Virus record (IMG/VR): IMGVR_UViG_3300042367_000097
Coordinates: 1 to 20,072 of that record
Reading direction: 5' to 3' (one strand)
DNA length: 20,072 bases
From: a virus
Below, piece by piece: positions 3,971 through 20,025 of this stretch. How positions within the stretch are numbered: the first letter of the stretch is position 1; each line of letters opens with the position of its first letter. Position numbers and translations under genes: made by a program. The notes beneath the pieces were generated by a model, which was given only the letters and a program-made list of their open reading frames with translations, made no database searches and was not told the DNA's origin.

Positions 3971-6134
3971 TAGACTGTTGCTGGGGTTCAGGCATACCTT
4001 CCTGTTGAATCTTATCTGAAACAGGGCTTACGCCAACTCTGCCGATTTGCTTGTTCTGCTGTTGCATAACAGACATCTGAAGGTTTTTAATGTAATTCTG
4101 CAACAGGGCTTGGAACATCGGGTCGGCCTGTTGAGCCTGTTGAGCCTTCATATTCTTTTGCATAATCTGTTGCAAATACATCATCTTGGTTTCCGCTGTC
4201 GGGTCATTCTCGACATAGGTAGGCTCGTTACCAAGCATCATCATACCAAGTTTAGTTTGGACATCCTCGTAAAGACGCTGAGACGCAGACTGAGGATTAA
4301 GAATGATTTCCTTGGCAGTGTCAGGGCTGATGGCCTCAACAGCCTTTTGCACCAACTTAGCCTTGTCAATGATACCACCGCTATCCATCGGAAGCACAAA
4401 CTGAGCGATAGCCTGAAGTTTTTCAAGGACTAGGTCGCTGTACAGATTTCTGACATCAAACTTAACTTCAAAATCAAACTGGTTAGTAATGTCATCTAGG
4501 TTCTTAGGAAGGGAGATGCCAGTGACTCGTTCAATTTCAACGATATCCATATACTGGATGCTCAGTTGGAGCATCTGCGTATAGACTTCAGACCAAGCGG
4601 TAAGCCAGTTGTCCACGGAATTCTGCTGGAGCATTTGTGCAAGTGCTGGAGGAGTTTCTTCTCTGGTAAGACCAAAGTAACCAGCCGCATTCTTTTCAAC
4701 CTGTTGAGTAACAAACTCAGCAATTGTAGGAGTACCCTTGGGCGGCTCCATCCACTTGTAATCGTTGACATCAGAAACAGGGAGTAGCATCGCAGGGCCA
4801 ATACGGCCTGTACCACCTACACGCCTCTTATACATCAATGGCGGCACAGTCTCAAAGGCCGTTCGGTCTCTCATCGAGTCGTGTTGAGCCTTAAGTTCTG
4901 CTTGGTCAGTTGATAGGATGTCGGTGATGCCTCGGCTTTCGTAGATGGCCTTGCGGATGTACTCCCTGCGAAGAACAACAAATGGGTATTTGCCGTGAGC
5001 ATAACCCAGTTTGCCGTGCTTCAAATATGTGTTAGAAGAAGCGTTAGGGCAGAACACAGTATAGTATGTGCAAGGATTGCCCTGTTCGTTCAACTGCTTG
5101 TAATAAGCGTACACAACCTCGATAAGGTTGTTTGTTCTAAGTCTATAGTCTTGGTTAAGTTTGTTTGTCGGGACAATGTTAGGGTCTCTGTACCAAGTAA
5201 ACATACCCTTTGTCTTGACCGCTTCTTCAACGCCACCTTCCATCCATTCATCCGTGTTAATCATAGCACGGACTTCCAGTTCGGTCATAAAGACCTTGCG
5301 GAAAACAACACGAGCCTTCTGAAGGTCGATAGTTTCTGGGGGGAAAGAAATCTCGTCATACGGCTTAAGCGTGGTGACAGTCGGAAGATTCTTCATCAGA
5401 ACTTCTTCGTAAAGCGTAGTGTAGCCCTGACCTCTAAGTTCTCTAACGGCCTTTTTGATAAAATTTTCAGTTTTATCGGGCATCAATCCCATAATCAAAG
5501 AAACAGCGATGTCTTCCATTTCTTTGTCCGCAATGTAGTTCGGAAGAGCCAAAAGCGGAGATTCAGGATTTCCCTGAGCAAGTTCGTTAACAGTCTGGAT
5601 AAGGTCAGAAATCGTGAACTTTTTCTCACGAGTACCCATTTCCTGCTCCCAGCCGATGTGCATTACAGCCCAACCAAACTGATTAGCATACTGACCCCAA
5701 AGTTCGGCTTCCTTTCGCATCTCCTGCTTCATTCTTCCTGAAGCCACATATTCAAGAAGCGTAGACATCGCACCAGCGTGAACTCCGTCTTCAATGGTTC
5801 TTCCAGACACGCCAAGTTTAGCGGCCTTAAGAGCGTTCATCCAAAGAGCGGTCTGCTCGTTGATGATTCTATCAATCAATCTAATTCTAGCATCAGACGC
5901 ACCTTCAAACGGAAGAGCAGGGTCATCTTCGTCCCTGTTAGAAGAAAACTTCTTGCCATCGGGGGTCTGTCCGTTCCAACGGCAAAATCTCAGGTCATCG
6001 TTATCGTTCAGTTCTGTGGTATTAGCACCAAACAGATAAGAGCGGTTAAGTTCGTGGACAAGTTCCTGAATGTTAGGCGTGTCAGAGCCGTAAAGCAGTT
6101 TGTCCTGAGATTGGTCTGAAGTGTAATTATCCAT
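3957..6134 (-). CDS. Portal protein
   Basis: This 725-aa protein follows TerL directly and precedes scaffold and capsid genes, the normal place for a portal. Its length matches the large portals of P22-like and similar podovirus-type phages. The N-terminus carries an RFCRWNGQTPDGKKF stretch and ALPFEGASDARIRLIDRII, the 'PF.GASD' type pattern found in large portals. The middle has VVLRREYIRKAIYESRGI and STDQAELKAQHDSMRDR, like the portal clip/stem region. The last ~120 residues are Q- and M-rich helical (QQIMQKNMKAQQAQQAD), consistent with a barrel or tail extension. It should form the dodecameric DNA channel. Start ATG overlaps the TerL stop (TAATG). Confidence 0.85.
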   Translation of the reverse strand: MDNYTSDQSQDKLLYGSDTPNIQELVHELNRSYLFGANTTELNDNDDLRFCRWNGQTPDGKKFSSNRDEDDPALPFEGASDARIRLIDRIINEQTALWMNALKAAKLGVSGRTIEDGVHAGAMSTLLEYVASGRMKQEMRKEAELWGQYANQFGWAVMHIGWEQEMGTREKKFTISDLIQTVNELAQGNPESPLLALPNYIADKEMEDIAVSLIMGLMPDKTENFIKKAVRELRGQGYTTLYEEVLMKNLPTVTTLKPYDEISFPPETIDLQKARVVFRKVFMTELEVRAMINTDEWMEGGVEEAVKTKGMFTWYRDPNIVPTNKLNQDYRLRTNNLIEVVYAYYKQLNEQGNPCTYYTVFCPNASSNTYLKHGKLGYAHGKYPFVVLRREYIRKAIYESRGITDILSTDQAELKAQHDSMRDRTAFETVPPLMYKRRVGGTGRIGPAMLLPVSDVNDYKWMEPPKGTPTIAEFVTQQVEKNAAGYFGLTREETPPALAQMLQQNSVDNWLTAWSEVYTQMLQLSIQYMDIVEIERVTGISLPKNLDDITNQFDFEVKFDVRNLYSDLVLEKLQAIAQFVLPMDSGGIIDKAKLVQKAVEAISPDTAKEIILNPQSASQRLYEDVQTKLGMMMLGNEPTYVENDPTAETKMMYLQQIMQKNMKAQQAQQADPMFQALLQNYIKNLQMSVMQQQNKQIGRVGVSPVSDKIQQEGMPEPQQQSNEGY

Positions 6135-7744
6135 TAATACGAGAAAGGCTTGTTAAGGGGTTGGTTTTTAACATCTAGAAAGTCAGGGGACATTACAACC
6201 AAATAACGCAAACAATCAATGGGGTCTTTGGTTGCCCCTTTGTCTCCATCAGCATTTGTCCATTCTTTAAGCGAGTAAATCAAGTTTTGGCACTTGTCGC
6301 TGACATAAAGTTTAGGCTGGTTGAGCGGAGATAGCGGTTGATTAATGTCATATGCCAACAGGTCATTAATCATTGCAACGCCTTGCTCGATTGCAACACC
6401 AGCGGCAGGTGCAAAATACATCGGGTCTTCACCCGAATCAAGCAGTTCAATAACCGATGTCCCGCCATCCTTACCTACTGCCTGTGTTGCACCAGCCCGA
6501 GGGTCGATATAGCGTTCTAGTATCTCCTCGTTGCCCTCTAAAGTCTTAATGAGTTTCTTAATATCATCAATACCCATACCAGCACCATTGCGTTGAGCCA
6601 TACCTTCCTTGCCGTCTGGCTTTTCTGAAGGCAACGCCCAATCCCCATACGAAATGTCTGGGAATTCACGATAAACATAAATATTACCTTCCTTGTCAAC
6701 CCTAGCCCAAATCATAAACCAGTTTCTAGCCCCAGCAGGGTCAGTCACCATATAATTTGTACCCTCTTCTGGAATCATATCGTGTTTAACAATATGGTTA
6801 TCTCCAAACCTTGGGAATTGGTTACCTACTGTATTGTCAGCCCATCCGTAAGCACGGATTTTCTTCTCGTAGATATTCTTTCCGTCCAACTGTTTAACAA
6901 GTTCGTCAAAAGGATTGTAAGGATTAAGTTGAGAGTGAAACCAAATAGCCGCTCCGTTGTTGCGATGGCACTGAGCCATATACGGCATATGACCTTTAGG
7001 ACAGCCGCCAACATAGTATGTGTCCTTGTCAAGGATTGAAGCAGGAAGGGTTTTTGTAAATTTAGAACCAGCGACAAACTCCTTAACAACCTGCGAATAA
7101 CCAGCAATAGGAGTAAAAGTAATCGCTAGTTTTCCTCTGCGGGTAACAAGACGATAACGCAGGGTTTCAACCCAGTCCAGCGGCACAAGTTCATCGCACC
7201 AAATAAGGTCACATTCGCCACCTTCGATGACATCACGCTTCTGAGCGTAATTCATAAACACACATTGAGACCCATTAGGAAGAATAAACGATTCTTCAGA
7301 GAAGCCGTTCTTCTGTGAGTATGCGATGTTTGTAACCTTGGTCTTTTTGCAATTTTTTAATTCTGGAGGCATATACTTCCAGACTACATTCTGTTGCATT
7401 TGGATGCTGGACTTTTGCGTTGTATGCAAGCACCAGACCATCGCTTTCTCTTTGTTGATAAGCGTTTGAATTACACGCTTTGCCATCCACTCAGTTTTAC
7501 CAGCACGATTGCCACCAAGAACAAGGATTTCCTGCTTATCTTTTAGAAGAGCATCTGCGTCCTTCCAGTGGTCAGGCTCAAAGCCGTGACGATAAGGGTC
7601 TAGAGATTCTGCTAGAATCTTATCTTCTCTGAGTTCAAGAATCTCTGCCGTCTTCTCAATACCGACTTTCTCGACCAGCATCTTGATGTCGGGCATCTTG
7701 ATGACTGGGTGAGGAGTCGGTTTAAAAGACGATAGTTCGCTCAT
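6134..7744 (-). CDS. terL: Terminase large subunit (ATPase plus nuclease)
   Basis: This 536-aa protein has both terminase domains. The ATPase carries Walker A GGNRAGKTE (77-85), Walker B CDLIWCDE (178-185) with the catalytic acid E185, and a TFTP motif III (209-212). The RNase H-fold nuclease carries three acidic positions: D335 in TDPAG, D424 in RYIDPRAG, and D507/D510 in KDPIDCLRYL. It packages genomic DNA through the portal encoded next. The start ATG overlaps the upstream stop (ATGA). No small terminase subunit is recognised next to it; the HTH protein at 17679 or an upstream unknown could fill that role. Confidence 0.95.
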   Translation of the reverse strand: MSELSSFKPTPHPVIKMPDIKMLVEKVGIEKTAEILELREDKILAESLDPYRHGFEPDHWKDADALLKDKQEILVLGGNRAGKTEWMAKRVIQTLINKEKAMVWCLHTTQKSSIQMQQNVVWKYMPPELKNCKKTKVTNIAYSQKNGFSEESFILPNGSQCVFMNYAQKRDVIEGGECDLIWCDELVPLDWVETLRYRLVTRRGKLAITFTPIAGYSQVVKEFVAGSKFTKTLPASILDKDTYYVGGCPKGHMPYMAQCHRNNGAAIWFHSQLNPYNPFDELVKQLDGKNIYEKKIRAYGWADNTVGNQFPRFGDNHIVKHDMIPEEGTNYMVTDPAGARNWFMIWARVDKEGNIYVYREFPDISYGDWALPSEKPDGKEGMAQRNGAGMGIDDIKKLIKTLEGNEEILERYIDPRAGATQAVGKDGGTSVIELLDSGEDPMYFAPAAGVAIEQGVAMINDLLAYDINQPLSPLNQPKLYVSDKCQNLIYSLKEWTNADGDKGATKDPIDCLRYLVVMSPDFLDVKNQPLNKPFSY

Positions 7745-10395: not shown

Positions 10396-10532
10396 TAGCA
10401 CTTACCCTTGGGTTTGTTTTCCTTTTTTTCGTTTTTCGACCCATTTTCGTGGTCGAGAGGCTTGAACTTAGGGATTCCTAGAGACTTTTCTAGGTTCTTA
10501 TACTCGTTTGCAGTCTTTGAGGGCTTTTTCAT
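10395..10532 (-). CDS. Small basic protein (45 aa)
   Basis: The frame opens with ATG at 10532 inside the end of the 167-aa gene (35-nt overlap) and its TAA overlaps the next ATG. The product starts MKKPSKTANEYKNLEKSL, has a short folded-looking segment (GIPKFKPLDHENG), then a Lys/Glu/Asn tail ending PKGKC. No SD is present, so coupled translation is likely. Function unknown; codon pattern and tight overlaps make it credible. Confidence 0.6.
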   Translation of the reverse strand: MKKPSKTANEYKNLEKSLGIPKFKPLDHENGSKNEKKENKPKGKC

Positions 10533-11001
10533 AGGATTTGTAAGGGGGTTTTCTGACACAGTGTCTCAAATTCTTAGAATCAACAACCACATACGAATGC
10601 ATCGAGTAGTTGGCGTTGTCCTTGCAGTTTACATTACATTTGTAGCCGATATCGTGTTCGACCATAATGATACGCTTGTTTTTATACTTATTCCTAACAA
10701 CCTTTCCAACCCACATCGTATTGTTGACAGTATTGTTAAAATCATCCTTGGACATCACCTCTAGGTCAACAGGAACGCTAGTTTCCTTGTTCCATTCGTC
10801 TTTGACCTTCAAATATGTACGAAGATAGTAAATTCCGACATCAGTCCAGTAGATGGCTCGCAGATGTTCGGGCTTTTTCGAGTCTTCCCTGTACCAGAGT
10901 ACGCCAAGGTCGTGTTTATCAGCCAAGTTCTTACGGATGATTTTGAATTCAGCCCTAGGAAGGCCAATTTCCTTAGATAGGTCGCTCTCCTTGATGTCCA
11001 T
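10498..11001 (-). CDS. Unknown protein (167 aa), first gene of the capsid operon
   Basis: I place the start at ATG 11001 (MDIKESDLSKEIG); a TTG at 11016 in frame would add five residues. The first ~30 residues (ESDLSKEIGLPRAEFKIIRK) look like a helix-turn-helix, followed by a region that could be a wing (LGVLWYRED). The C-terminal half has scattered cysteines and histidines (GYKCNVNCKDN, KNLRHCVRKPPYKSYEKA). It might be a DNA-binding regulator or small packaging protein; neither is established. It is the first gene after the repeat-rich intergenic region, so its promoter should lie at 11010-11250. Confidence 0.7.
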   Translation of the reverse strand: MDIKESDLSKEIGLPRAEFKIIRKNLADKHDLGVLWYREDSKKPEHLRAIYWTDVGIYYLRTYLKVKDEWNKETSVPVDLEVMSKDDFNNTVNNTMWVGKVVRNKYKNKRIIMVEHDIGYKCNVNCKDNANYSMHSYVVVDSKNLRHCVRKPPYKSYEKALKDCKRV

Positions 11002-11049
11002 ACGCCCACTTTTCAAATGAAAACCAATATGTCAACCTTGTTATCTATA

Positions 11050-11145
11050 ACCTATTCTATCCCCTATTCTATCTGTAGGAAATCCATAGCACCCCCCTCG
11101 GGAAATACATTACACCCCCCTAGGAAATAGATTTCCCCCTACCCA
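11050..11145 (-). repeat. Origin-like repeat module, intergenic copy
   Basis: On the plus strand, GGAAA begins at 11078, 11101 and 11123, with C-runs between (11092-11097, 11115-11120, 11135-11139); the period is 22-23 bp. Next to them are two exact 12-bp-period copies of CCTATTCTATC (11050-11073). Read on the minus strand the order is TTTCCTAGGG, TTTCCCG, TTTCCTACAGATAGAA, then GATAGAATAGG twice. The same order occurs inside the initiator-like gene at 19683-19767. It may bind the phage initiator, as a second origin or as an operator for the capsid operon. Confidence 0.7.
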
Positions 11146-11274
11146 TAACATTAAAATAACACTTTCCGCTTGACACATAGTACCATAAACCCCCCTAATA
11201 ACCCCCAACACAGACTTAATATAGTGGCTTTTACACATAAATTGTGTGTGTGTAAATGCGTAAGGATTCAAGGG

Positions 11275-12162: not shown

Positions 12163-12200
12163 ACATCTATTCTGTCGAGACACTTGGTGTCCGTAAATTT
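12163..12200 (-). promoter_or_regulatory. Bipartite promoter-like element A
   Basis: The minus strand reads AAATTTACGGAC, 17 variable bases, then AATAGATGT. The identical two boxes with the same 17-bp gap occur at 17556-17593. Spacing from ACGGAC to AATAGA equals that of a -35/-10 pair, but neither box is a consensus sigma-70 hexamer. It lies ~130 bp before the 139-aa gene. Confidence 0.65.
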
Positions 12201-17555: not shown

Positions 17556-17593
17556 ACATCTATTCTTACCAGCCGCCCTGCGTCCGTAAATTT
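17556..17593 (-). promoter_or_regulatory. Bipartite promoter-like element B
   Basis: The minus strand reads AAATTTACGGAC, 17 variable bases, then AATAGATGT, the same as element A. The 17-bp gap is conserved while its sequence is not, which is the signature of a promoter. It lies ~140 bp before the 159-aa gene and presumably drives the accessory operon down to the 151-aa gene. Confidence 0.65.
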
Positions 17594-18608: not shown

Positions 18609-19399
18609 AAGACGCTACTGTTAGTACTATGTCGGAGAGCGAATATCGCTCTCTTCCCGCTTTGAATGCTTCCCGCTTCAAGGCGTTCTTCCGCTCGCCC
18701 TTCCACTTCTTTAACCAGAGGGAGGTCGAGGAAACCGAGGCTATGAGGATTGGCACTGCCATCCACACCGCCATTCTTGAGCCTGAGCAGTACCTGAGCA
18801 CCATCGCCTTCTACCCAGAGGCTGACGGACGCACGACTGAGGGTAAGGCCATCAAAAAGGCTTTTGAGGCTGGGGCTGTCGGCAAGACCATCCTTAAGGC
18901 TGACTCCAAGGAAATCGTGGAGAGGGCTGTTAAGGCCGTGACCACGCACCAAGAGGTCAGGCTCATCCTCGCCAACCCTGAGAACCGCAGGGAGCAGGTC
19001 TTGCTTACCAGCCTATGGGAGCAGGACTGCAAGGCTCGCCTTGACCTGATTAATGTCGAGACTGGCGTTATCAGGGATATCAAAACCTGTGAGGACGCAT
19101 CGCCTGAGCGGTTTAAGTACGAAGTCCGTGACCGCCTATACTGGGTACAGGCAGGGTTCTATGCCCTTGTCGCTGAAAAGGTGTTCGGAAAGCCTTTTGG
19201 CTTTGAATTCATCGCTGTGGAAAAAGGTGACCCGAGCACTTGCACCATCTACGATGTGGACGCTAAGGAACTTGAGATGTGGAAGCACATCGTGGACTGT
19301 AATCTGTCCCATCTGAAGGCTTGCACCAACACCAAGGCTTGGACTGGCTACAACAGCCAGACCCTAGGTAGCCTGAACTTGAGCCAGTACCTGTCGTGA
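18605..19399 (+). CDS. RecE-like exonuclease (PD-(D/E)XK superfamily)
   Basis: I use ATG at 18605, which overlaps the RusA stop; an upstream in-frame ATG at 18572 would lie in RusA. The 264-aa product has ALNASRFKAF (19-28), MRIGTAIHTAIL (47-58, H54), CKARLDLIN (142-150, D147), RDIKTCE (157-163, D158 and K160) and YWVQAGFY (169-176). This is the order of motifs in the exonuclease VIII/RecE nuclease domain (PDDEXK_12 type). It should resect double-strand ends 5' to 3' for annealing-based recombination. No RecT-type annealase is seen; it may lie beyond the right edge. Confidence 0.9.
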   Translation: MKDATVSTMSESEYRSLPALNASRFKAFFRSPFHFFNQREVEETEAMRIGTAIHTAILEPEQYLSTIAFYPEADGRTTEGKAIKKAFEAGAVGKTILKADSKEIVERAVKAVTTHQEVRLILANPENRREQVLLTSLWEQDCKARLDLINVETGVIRDIKTCEDASPERFKYEVRDRLYWVQAGFYALVAEKVFGKPFGFEFIAVEKGDPSTCTIYDVDAKELEMWKHIVDCNLSHLKACTNTKAWTGYNSQTLGSLNLSQYLS

Positions 19400-20025
19400 G
19401 CAAGCCCTCATTCACTGGTGTCTGGATTCCTGTCGAGGTCTTCCAGATGGAGACCCTTACCATCACCGAGAAGGTGGTGTACGGAATTGTAAACGCCCTC
19501 GATAACGAAGAGGGCTGTTACGCCTCTAACGGCTACCTTGCACAGACCCTGCAACTGAGCGACAGACAGGTCAAGAATGTCCTCAAAACGCTTATCGACT
19601 TCCAGTTGGTGGTACGCATCGAAGTGGACGGCAAACGCATCCTACGGACAGTAGAGAAGCAAGCCTTGGTGGGTGCTACAGATTTCCTAGGGAGGGGGAA
19701 GCCAGTTTCCCGCAGGGGGGGAAGTAGACTTCCTACAGATAGAAAAGAGGATAAGAAAGAGGATAAACCTACCCTAACCCTTCCTTACGAACAGCCTTTT
19801 TCGGATGCTTGGGACAAGTGGGTGGCCTATCGGAAACAGATTAAGAAGCCCCTGTCAGAGATGACGATGAAGGAGCAGTTGCTGATGCTCTCTGGCTGGG
19901 GGTCTGAACAGAACGCCATCGCCTCGATTAACAAAAGTATTGCTTTCGGCTGGCAGGGTCTTTTTGTGGTAACACCAAACATCAAGAAGACGCTCACCAA
20001 CCAAGACCACGCCAATGGCTTCTAA
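19396..20025 (+). CDS. Winged-helix replication-initiator-like protein (O/DnaD-type)
   Basis: GTG at 19396 overlaps the exonuclease stop (GTGA). Residues ~8-85 form a winged helix-turn-helix (LTITEKVVYGIVNALDN, YASNGYLAQTLQLSDRQVKN), as in phage replication proteins of the lambda O or HTH_36 type. A low-complexity linker (95-128: RGKPVSRRGGSRLPTDRKED, KKEDKPT) follows; its DNA is the repeat module at 19683-19767. The C-terminal 80 residues (FSDAWDKWVAYRKQIKK, LLMLSGWGSEQNAIASINK) resemble a helicase-loader contact domain. It probably binds the origin inside its own gene. Family is assigned from architecture only. Confidence 0.8.
   Translation: MSKPSFTGVWIPVEVFQMETLTITEKVVYGIVNALDNEEGCYASNGYLAQTLQLSDRQVKNVLKTLIDFQLVVRIEVDGKRILRTVEKQALVGATDFLGRGKPVSRRGGSRLPTDRKEDKKEDKPTLTLPYEQPFSDAWDKWVAYRKQIKKPLSEMTMKEQLLMLSGWGSEQNAIASINKSIAFGWQGLFVVTPNIKKTLTNQDHANGF
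19683..19767 (+). repeat. Putative replication origin: iterons plus A-rich tandem repeats
   Basis: TTCC cores recur every 23 bp (TTTCCTAGGG, TTTCCCGCAGG, CTTCCTACAG), the first two followed by G-runs. Directly after come A/G-rich 12-bp-period repeats AAAGAGGATAA at 19744-19754 and 19756-19766. Iterons next to an easily melted block inside an initiator gene are the arrangement of lambda ori. The same module is present at 11050-11145 on the other strand. Confidence 0.6.

Follow-up and report, generated by a model that had tools for sequence, protein, structure and literature searches.

A Noncoding Copy of the Repeat Module of the Initiator Gene as a Candidate Second Replication Origin in a Clade of Uncultured Phages

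The window (the whole stretch of DNA analyzed here, 20,072 bp in length) is an IMG/VR virus record that represents a phage fragment; a near-identical relative is 46.7 kb long. Genes on the minus strand extend across 1-10.4 kb and include the large terminase gene (6134-7744; PF03237), and genes for RusA, an exonuclease VIII-like protein, and the replication initiator lie on the plus strand from 18.2 kb onward. In the relative L004, the initiator gene overlaps the start of a gene for an IstB/DnaC-like ATPase, and an ERF annealing protein is encoded next. The gene context of the initiator (RusA, the exonuclease VIII-like protein, the IstB/DnaC-like ATPase, and ERF) is replicative, and the loader, resolvase, exonuclease, and annealing genes are all present. 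A search of genome contigs for prophage or host relatives returned none. The features discussed below are as follows.

19396-20025, plus strand: replication initiator gene, encoding an N-terminal winged helix (HTH_36), a disordered linker, and a helical C-terminal domain
19681-19769, plus strand: in-gene module (first copy), coding for linker residues ∼96-124
19696-19711, plus strand: in-gene dyad GGGAAGCCAGTTTCCC
19720-19733, plus strand: in-gene dyad GGAAGTAGACTTCC
19734-19769, plus strand: in-gene AT-rich 12-mers, codons for DRKEDKKED
11041-11141, minus strand: second copy of the module, intergenic, made up of three dyad/iteron units and their G-runs followed by AT-rich 12-mers; found by alignment and conserved in relatives
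11123-11136, minus strand: iteron 1, perfect dyad GGAAATCTATTTCC, read directly
11100-11117, minus strand: iteron 2, partial dyad GGGTGTAATGTATTTCCC, read directly
11078-11094, minus strand: iteron 3, partial dyad GGGTGCTATGGATTTCC, from direct reading and alignment
11041-11077, minus strand: AT-rich 12-mer repeats, GATAGAATAGGG twice, putative unwinding element
11030-11035, minus strand: TTGACA, resembling a -35 element, 5 bp beyond the end of the module and unchanged in 14 of 14 phages
10498-11001, minus strand: first gene of the downstream operon, coding for a conserved 167-aa protein; minus-strand genes then continue to the large terminase

The initiator matches the HTH_36 domain (E=2e-7) and the PHROG family “replication initiation O-like” (E=9e-16). 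In its AlphaFold model, a winged helix is joined to a helical C-terminal domain by a linker of low confidence (residues 96-123), which coincides exactly with the stretch encoded by the in-gene module. The fold matches of the model are weak and belong to the initiator, Rep-DNA, DnaD, and MarR types. The protein has the plan of an O-like initiator, namely, an N-terminal DNA-binding domain, an iteron-bearing linker, and a C-terminal domain. Synonymous differences amount to 0.12 in the module versus 0.32 in the rest of the initiator gene, and every other 28-codon window of the gene has at least 0.24; the in-gene copy is under strong synonymous constraint.

The in-gene dyads of the lineages examined are spaced 22 to 24 bp apart with G- or C-runs between them and are followed by AT-rich 12-mers, with half-sites that vary by lineage (GGAA/TTCC, GGCA/TGCC, GTGCA/TGCAC, and AGCCGA/TCGGCT). 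For the last in-gene iteron, chosen by its position beside the AT-rich repeats without regard to symmetry, 82% of the arm positions are paired among 28 distinct sequences, compared to a maximum of 70% when the arms are shuffled among lineages; since the lineages are not independent, this covariation is strong but does not yield a formal probability. Such covariation of the arms is as expected for binding by a dimeric winged-helix protein. Arrays of repeats with lineage-specific sites followed by AT-rich 12-mers were also seen in the initiator linkers of L043, L054, L059, and L033, of Pseudomonas phages Skulduggery and Cruim01, and of Oceanospirillum phage GJ44, so to judge from these sequences, in-linker arrays appear to be general for the initiator family. 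They could serve for reading initiator specificity.

Alignment of minus-strand positions 11141-11041 to 19681-19769 confirmed the claim of the preliminary description that the intergenic region repeats the initiator-linker module in order. Both modules present, in the same sequence, a TTTCC-G-run, a TTTCCCG-G-run, TTCCTACAGATAGAA, and a 12-bp tandem. In the intergenic copy, TTTCCTAGGGGGG occupies minus-strand positions 11127-11115, TTTCCCGAGGGGGG occupies 11105-11092, TTCCTACAGATAGAA occupies 11081-11067, and the tandem extends over 11073-11051. All the elements first listed for 11050-11145 are therefore present, although that list had left out the additional dyad GGAAATCTATTTCC at 11136-11123, with which the array begins a little upstream of the part described. 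The 15 exact bases it emphasized are real, TTCCTACAGATAGAA being identical to 19730-19744, but on its own such an identity is weak evidence within 20 kb. Together, the two modules form the longest inverted repeat of the window (48 nt, 79%). Their local alignment score is 57, versus no more than 26 for any other 110-nt stretch of the window, and it was approached in none of 20,000 shuffles under two null models: the maximum was 30 in 10,000 dinucleotide shuffles and 36 in 10,000 shuffles that kept homopolymer runs. The initial judgment that the match exceeds chance thus holds, and the objection that it might follow from G-run composition is answered by the run-preserving shuffles, all of which stayed below 57.

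Each copy contains three dyad sites, with G-runs between them and a spacing of about two helical turns, followed by AT-rich 12-mers, an arrangement that, judged by its motifs, is the layout of a predicted origin. Iteron 2, a partial dyad in the window, is the perfect dyad GTGTAATAGATTACAC in the relative G041. The intergenic AT-rich 12-mers fall within the lowest 0.06 to 0.16% of the window in stability, and their in-gene counterparts are among the ∼1% least stable. No conserved RNA structure was predicted upstream of the intergenic module (RNAalifold energy of 0), and that region had no Rfam match.

Relatives were collected from IMG/VR by the initiator (34) and by an alignment (80). Every one of the 14 relatives that could be read at the relevant position carries the intergenic copy, always inverted, on the minus strand, and 7.3 to 8.7 kb upstream of the initiator; those loci of the window's clade that do not show it end before reaching that distance. 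The near-complete records of ∼45 kb, among them G012, whose 127-bp end overlap gives a circular map of ∼45.6 kb, carry exactly two arrays per genome, one coding and one noncoding. Across the clade, both the iterons and the AT-rich repeats of the intergenic copy are conserved, and its flanks diverge. Phages with this copy form a single group in the initiator tree (50 sequences; support, 100/100), which is compatible with one gain or one loss, the tree being unrooted and readable in either direction. Searches of the sister phages G016, G022, G028, G030, G031, G034, and G036 for a second copy returned only noise-level matches (G016 and G031 were searched minus their last 1 to 1.5 kb, and G016 also as a whole). 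Related phages that lack one copy while keeping both functions, which the preliminary description had regarded as contrary evidence, are found between clades, among the sister phages, and not within the window's own clade. In five sister records (G030, G031, G034, G025, and G027), reading by eye shows a cluster of tRNA-like genes at the site of the module, ahead of the late-gene homologue.

The coding and intergenic copies resemble each other more within a phage than between phages: own pairs score 37.8, versus 30.4 for mismatched pairs (13 phages), a value reached in none of 50,000 permutations (P ≤ 5e-5), and with one phage per subclade, P is 4e-5. Most of this signal is carried by the AT-rich half, as the iteron half alone gives a P of 0.03 for the 13 phages and 0.10 for one phage per subclade. 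The two copies of L007 and L008 are not mutually closest. The coding and noncoding copies appear from these comparisons to have changed together over evolution. Because a single split followed by independent drift is unlikely to produce such paired likeness, it implies that gene conversion or selection common to both copies has been at work.

These observations are best accommodated if the intergenic element serves as a second origin, noncoding and bound by the initiator, at which forks either fire or stall, a reading that can be regarded as fairly probable. Binding of the initiator to the intergenic copy is very likely, and origin or fork-barrier activity of this copy reasonably so. The winged-helix initiator would bind the three dyad iterons at both sites, the one within its own gene and the inverted one at 11.1 kb, and would melt the adjoining AT-rich 12-mers, after which the neighboring IstB/DnaC-like ATPase could load the helicase. 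The modules are inverted, and their unwinding ends point outward across the intervening 8.6 kb; should loading proceed in one direction only, a pair of outward forks could be expected. The intergenic copy might then act as a late origin whose unwinding end points away from the one in the gene, or, bound by the initiator, it might stall forks and so lead to recombination-dependent concatemer synthesis, as has been proposed for oriR of phage SPP1 (see below). A bare binding site, whether an operator or a titration site, would also be conserved, albeit with no obvious need for the AT-rich half; with that half both copied and co-evolving, a second origin accounts for more of the observations than either. 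GC skew was considered as origin evidence and set aside: the cumulative minimum lies 77 to 162 bp from the module in three of seven genomes, but it falls at the same early/late boundary in the sister phage G022, which has no module.

The choice originally offered was between a second origin and an operator of the capsid operon. Of the two, the former is the better supported, as the whole module has been copied, is present clade-wide, and evolves with the in-gene copy. According to the latter, the initiator bound to the intergenic copy would activate or repress the TTGACA promoter, so that the virion genes respond to initiator levels or to replication. In its favor, the AT-rich end of the module adjoins the TTGACA element, from the first base of which the ATG lies 34 to 36 nt on in 14 of 14 phages, and minus-strand genes follow up to the terminase. 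The -10 region beyond TTGACA is, on direct reading, weak and unconserved, like those of activator-dependent promoters. The TTGACA-ATG spacing suggests a transcript start at or near the ATG, i.e., a putative leaderless transcript. With the module abutting a conserved TTGACA upstream of the virion operon, an operator is possible in the window's clade. However, the site is not retained wherever the promoter and the operon are: in the sister phages, the homologous gene and the terminase persist, in most cases together with a TTGACA-like element ∼36 nt ahead of the ATG, and the site of the module is taken by tRNA genes or other sequence. Late expression is therefore not generally dependent on the module, and the AT-rich 12-mers, strongest in the paired evolution, would not need to be copied for an operator, which makes this explanation rather unlikely. 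The product of 10498-11001 has conserved homologues of 160 to 175 aa; the window copy matched no Pfam or PHROG family, and its fold matches, to parts of proteasome ATPases, were poor (TM of 0.3) and are not believed.

Both roles could also be combined, with initiator binding and melting beside TTGACA launching a fork away from the in-gene origin and at the same time turning on the virion operon, and with gene conversion, or common selection acting on the initiator, keeping the copies similar. Such a switch, in which replication would directly license late transcription, must be considered doubtful.

Alternatively, the intergenic copy could bind the initiator without firing and set the copy number or the timing of replication. 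A site of this titration or timing type, datA, is known for DnaA. The RctB/crtS pair offers a further precedent, a second initiator site that serves as a checkpoint (PMC11711613). A titration or timing site would share the binding-site evidence with the second origin but would leave the conservation and paired evolution of the AT-rich half unexplained, and a lytic phage (the lifestyle being assumed) has little obvious need of copy-number control; such a role seems improbable.

Three contigs of the window's clade (L004, L019, and L056) break off, each at its start, inside the intergenic module or within ∼60 bp of it, which may reflect either failed assembly across the G-runs or some discontinuity, physical or in coverage. 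Such ends and the long G-runs would fit a signal for a factor other than the initiator, for example, one for packaging (pac) or a G-quadruplex. However, the same motif occurs in the initiator gene, distant from the packaging genes, the G-runs are ∼16 nt apart, beyond a canonical quadruplex, and the related initiators of L033 and L059 have a same-strand C-run spacer, so a signal of this kind is very unlikely. An inert relic of a duplicated initiator-gene fragment, to which the 48-nt ungapped similarity with coding DNA might point, is hardly credible given per-iteron spacing off by one or two bases, interrupting stop codons, clade-wide conservation amid diverging flanks, and continued pairing with the coding copy.

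A second origin of this kind has a parallel in SPP1, in which oriL lies within gene 38 and oriR in a long intergenic region, ∼12 to 13 kb apart in a ∼44-kb genome; each contains direct repeats and an AT-rich DNA unwinding element, both are bound by gp38 with nanomolar affinity, and stalling of forks at gp38-bound oriR has been proposed as the trigger of concatemer synthesis (PMC6316719, PMC3485210). The window's clade similarly has alike-built repeats with an AT-rich element in the initiator gene and in a distant noncoding region, as well as phage genes for a helicase loader, a Holliday junction resolvase, an exonuclease, and an annealing protein; binding and function have been shown for SPP1 only. 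Unlike those of SPP1, the copies described here are inverted and 7.3 to 8.7 kb apart, G-runs split the dyads, and a conserved promoter adjoins the intergenic copy. By analogy with the published layout, the phages of this clade likely work like SPP1.

The origin of phage lambda consists of iterons and an AT-rich region within gene O, with the helicase-loader gene adjacent. The window's clade shares the iterons and AT-rich region in the initiator gene beside a loader gene and differs by its noncoding second copy; to our knowledge, lambda has one such origin and no noncoding twin. Skulduggery, Cruim01, and GJ44 encode homologues of the initiator whose genes also contain repeats with AT-rich repeats after them, and in Skulduggery an annotated DnaC-like loader follows the initiator. 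Their repeat sequences differ from those of the window, and a second copy was not found in the complete genomes of Cruim01 and GJ44 or in the half of Skulduggery searched.

Laboratory documentation of dual origins with one copy inside the initiator gene has so far come mainly from SPP1. A clade of uncultured phages with an SPP1-like layout, together with sister phages that have no second copy, provides a natural comparison that bears on the purpose of this copy, be it a late origin, a barrier to forks that serves the switch to concatemers, or control of the late genes. The presence of two copies also offers an alignment-based route to the putative binding site of the initiator.

Two further sets of promoter-like sequences were observed in the window. 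At 11170-11207 on the plus strand, CTTGACA is followed 18 to 20 nt on by TAATAA within CCCCCCTAATAACCCC, directed away from the module. This element is conserved in 10 of the 14 relatives, is recognizable in the sister phages L046 and L048, and is possibly a divergent promoter; the adjoining genes are on the other strand, and no conserved RNA fold is associated with it. A 38-nt direct repeat (76%) at 12163-12200 and 17556-17593, ACATCTATTCT...GTCCGTAAATTT, falls in two intergenic gaps of the minus-strand early region and possibly represents early promoters.
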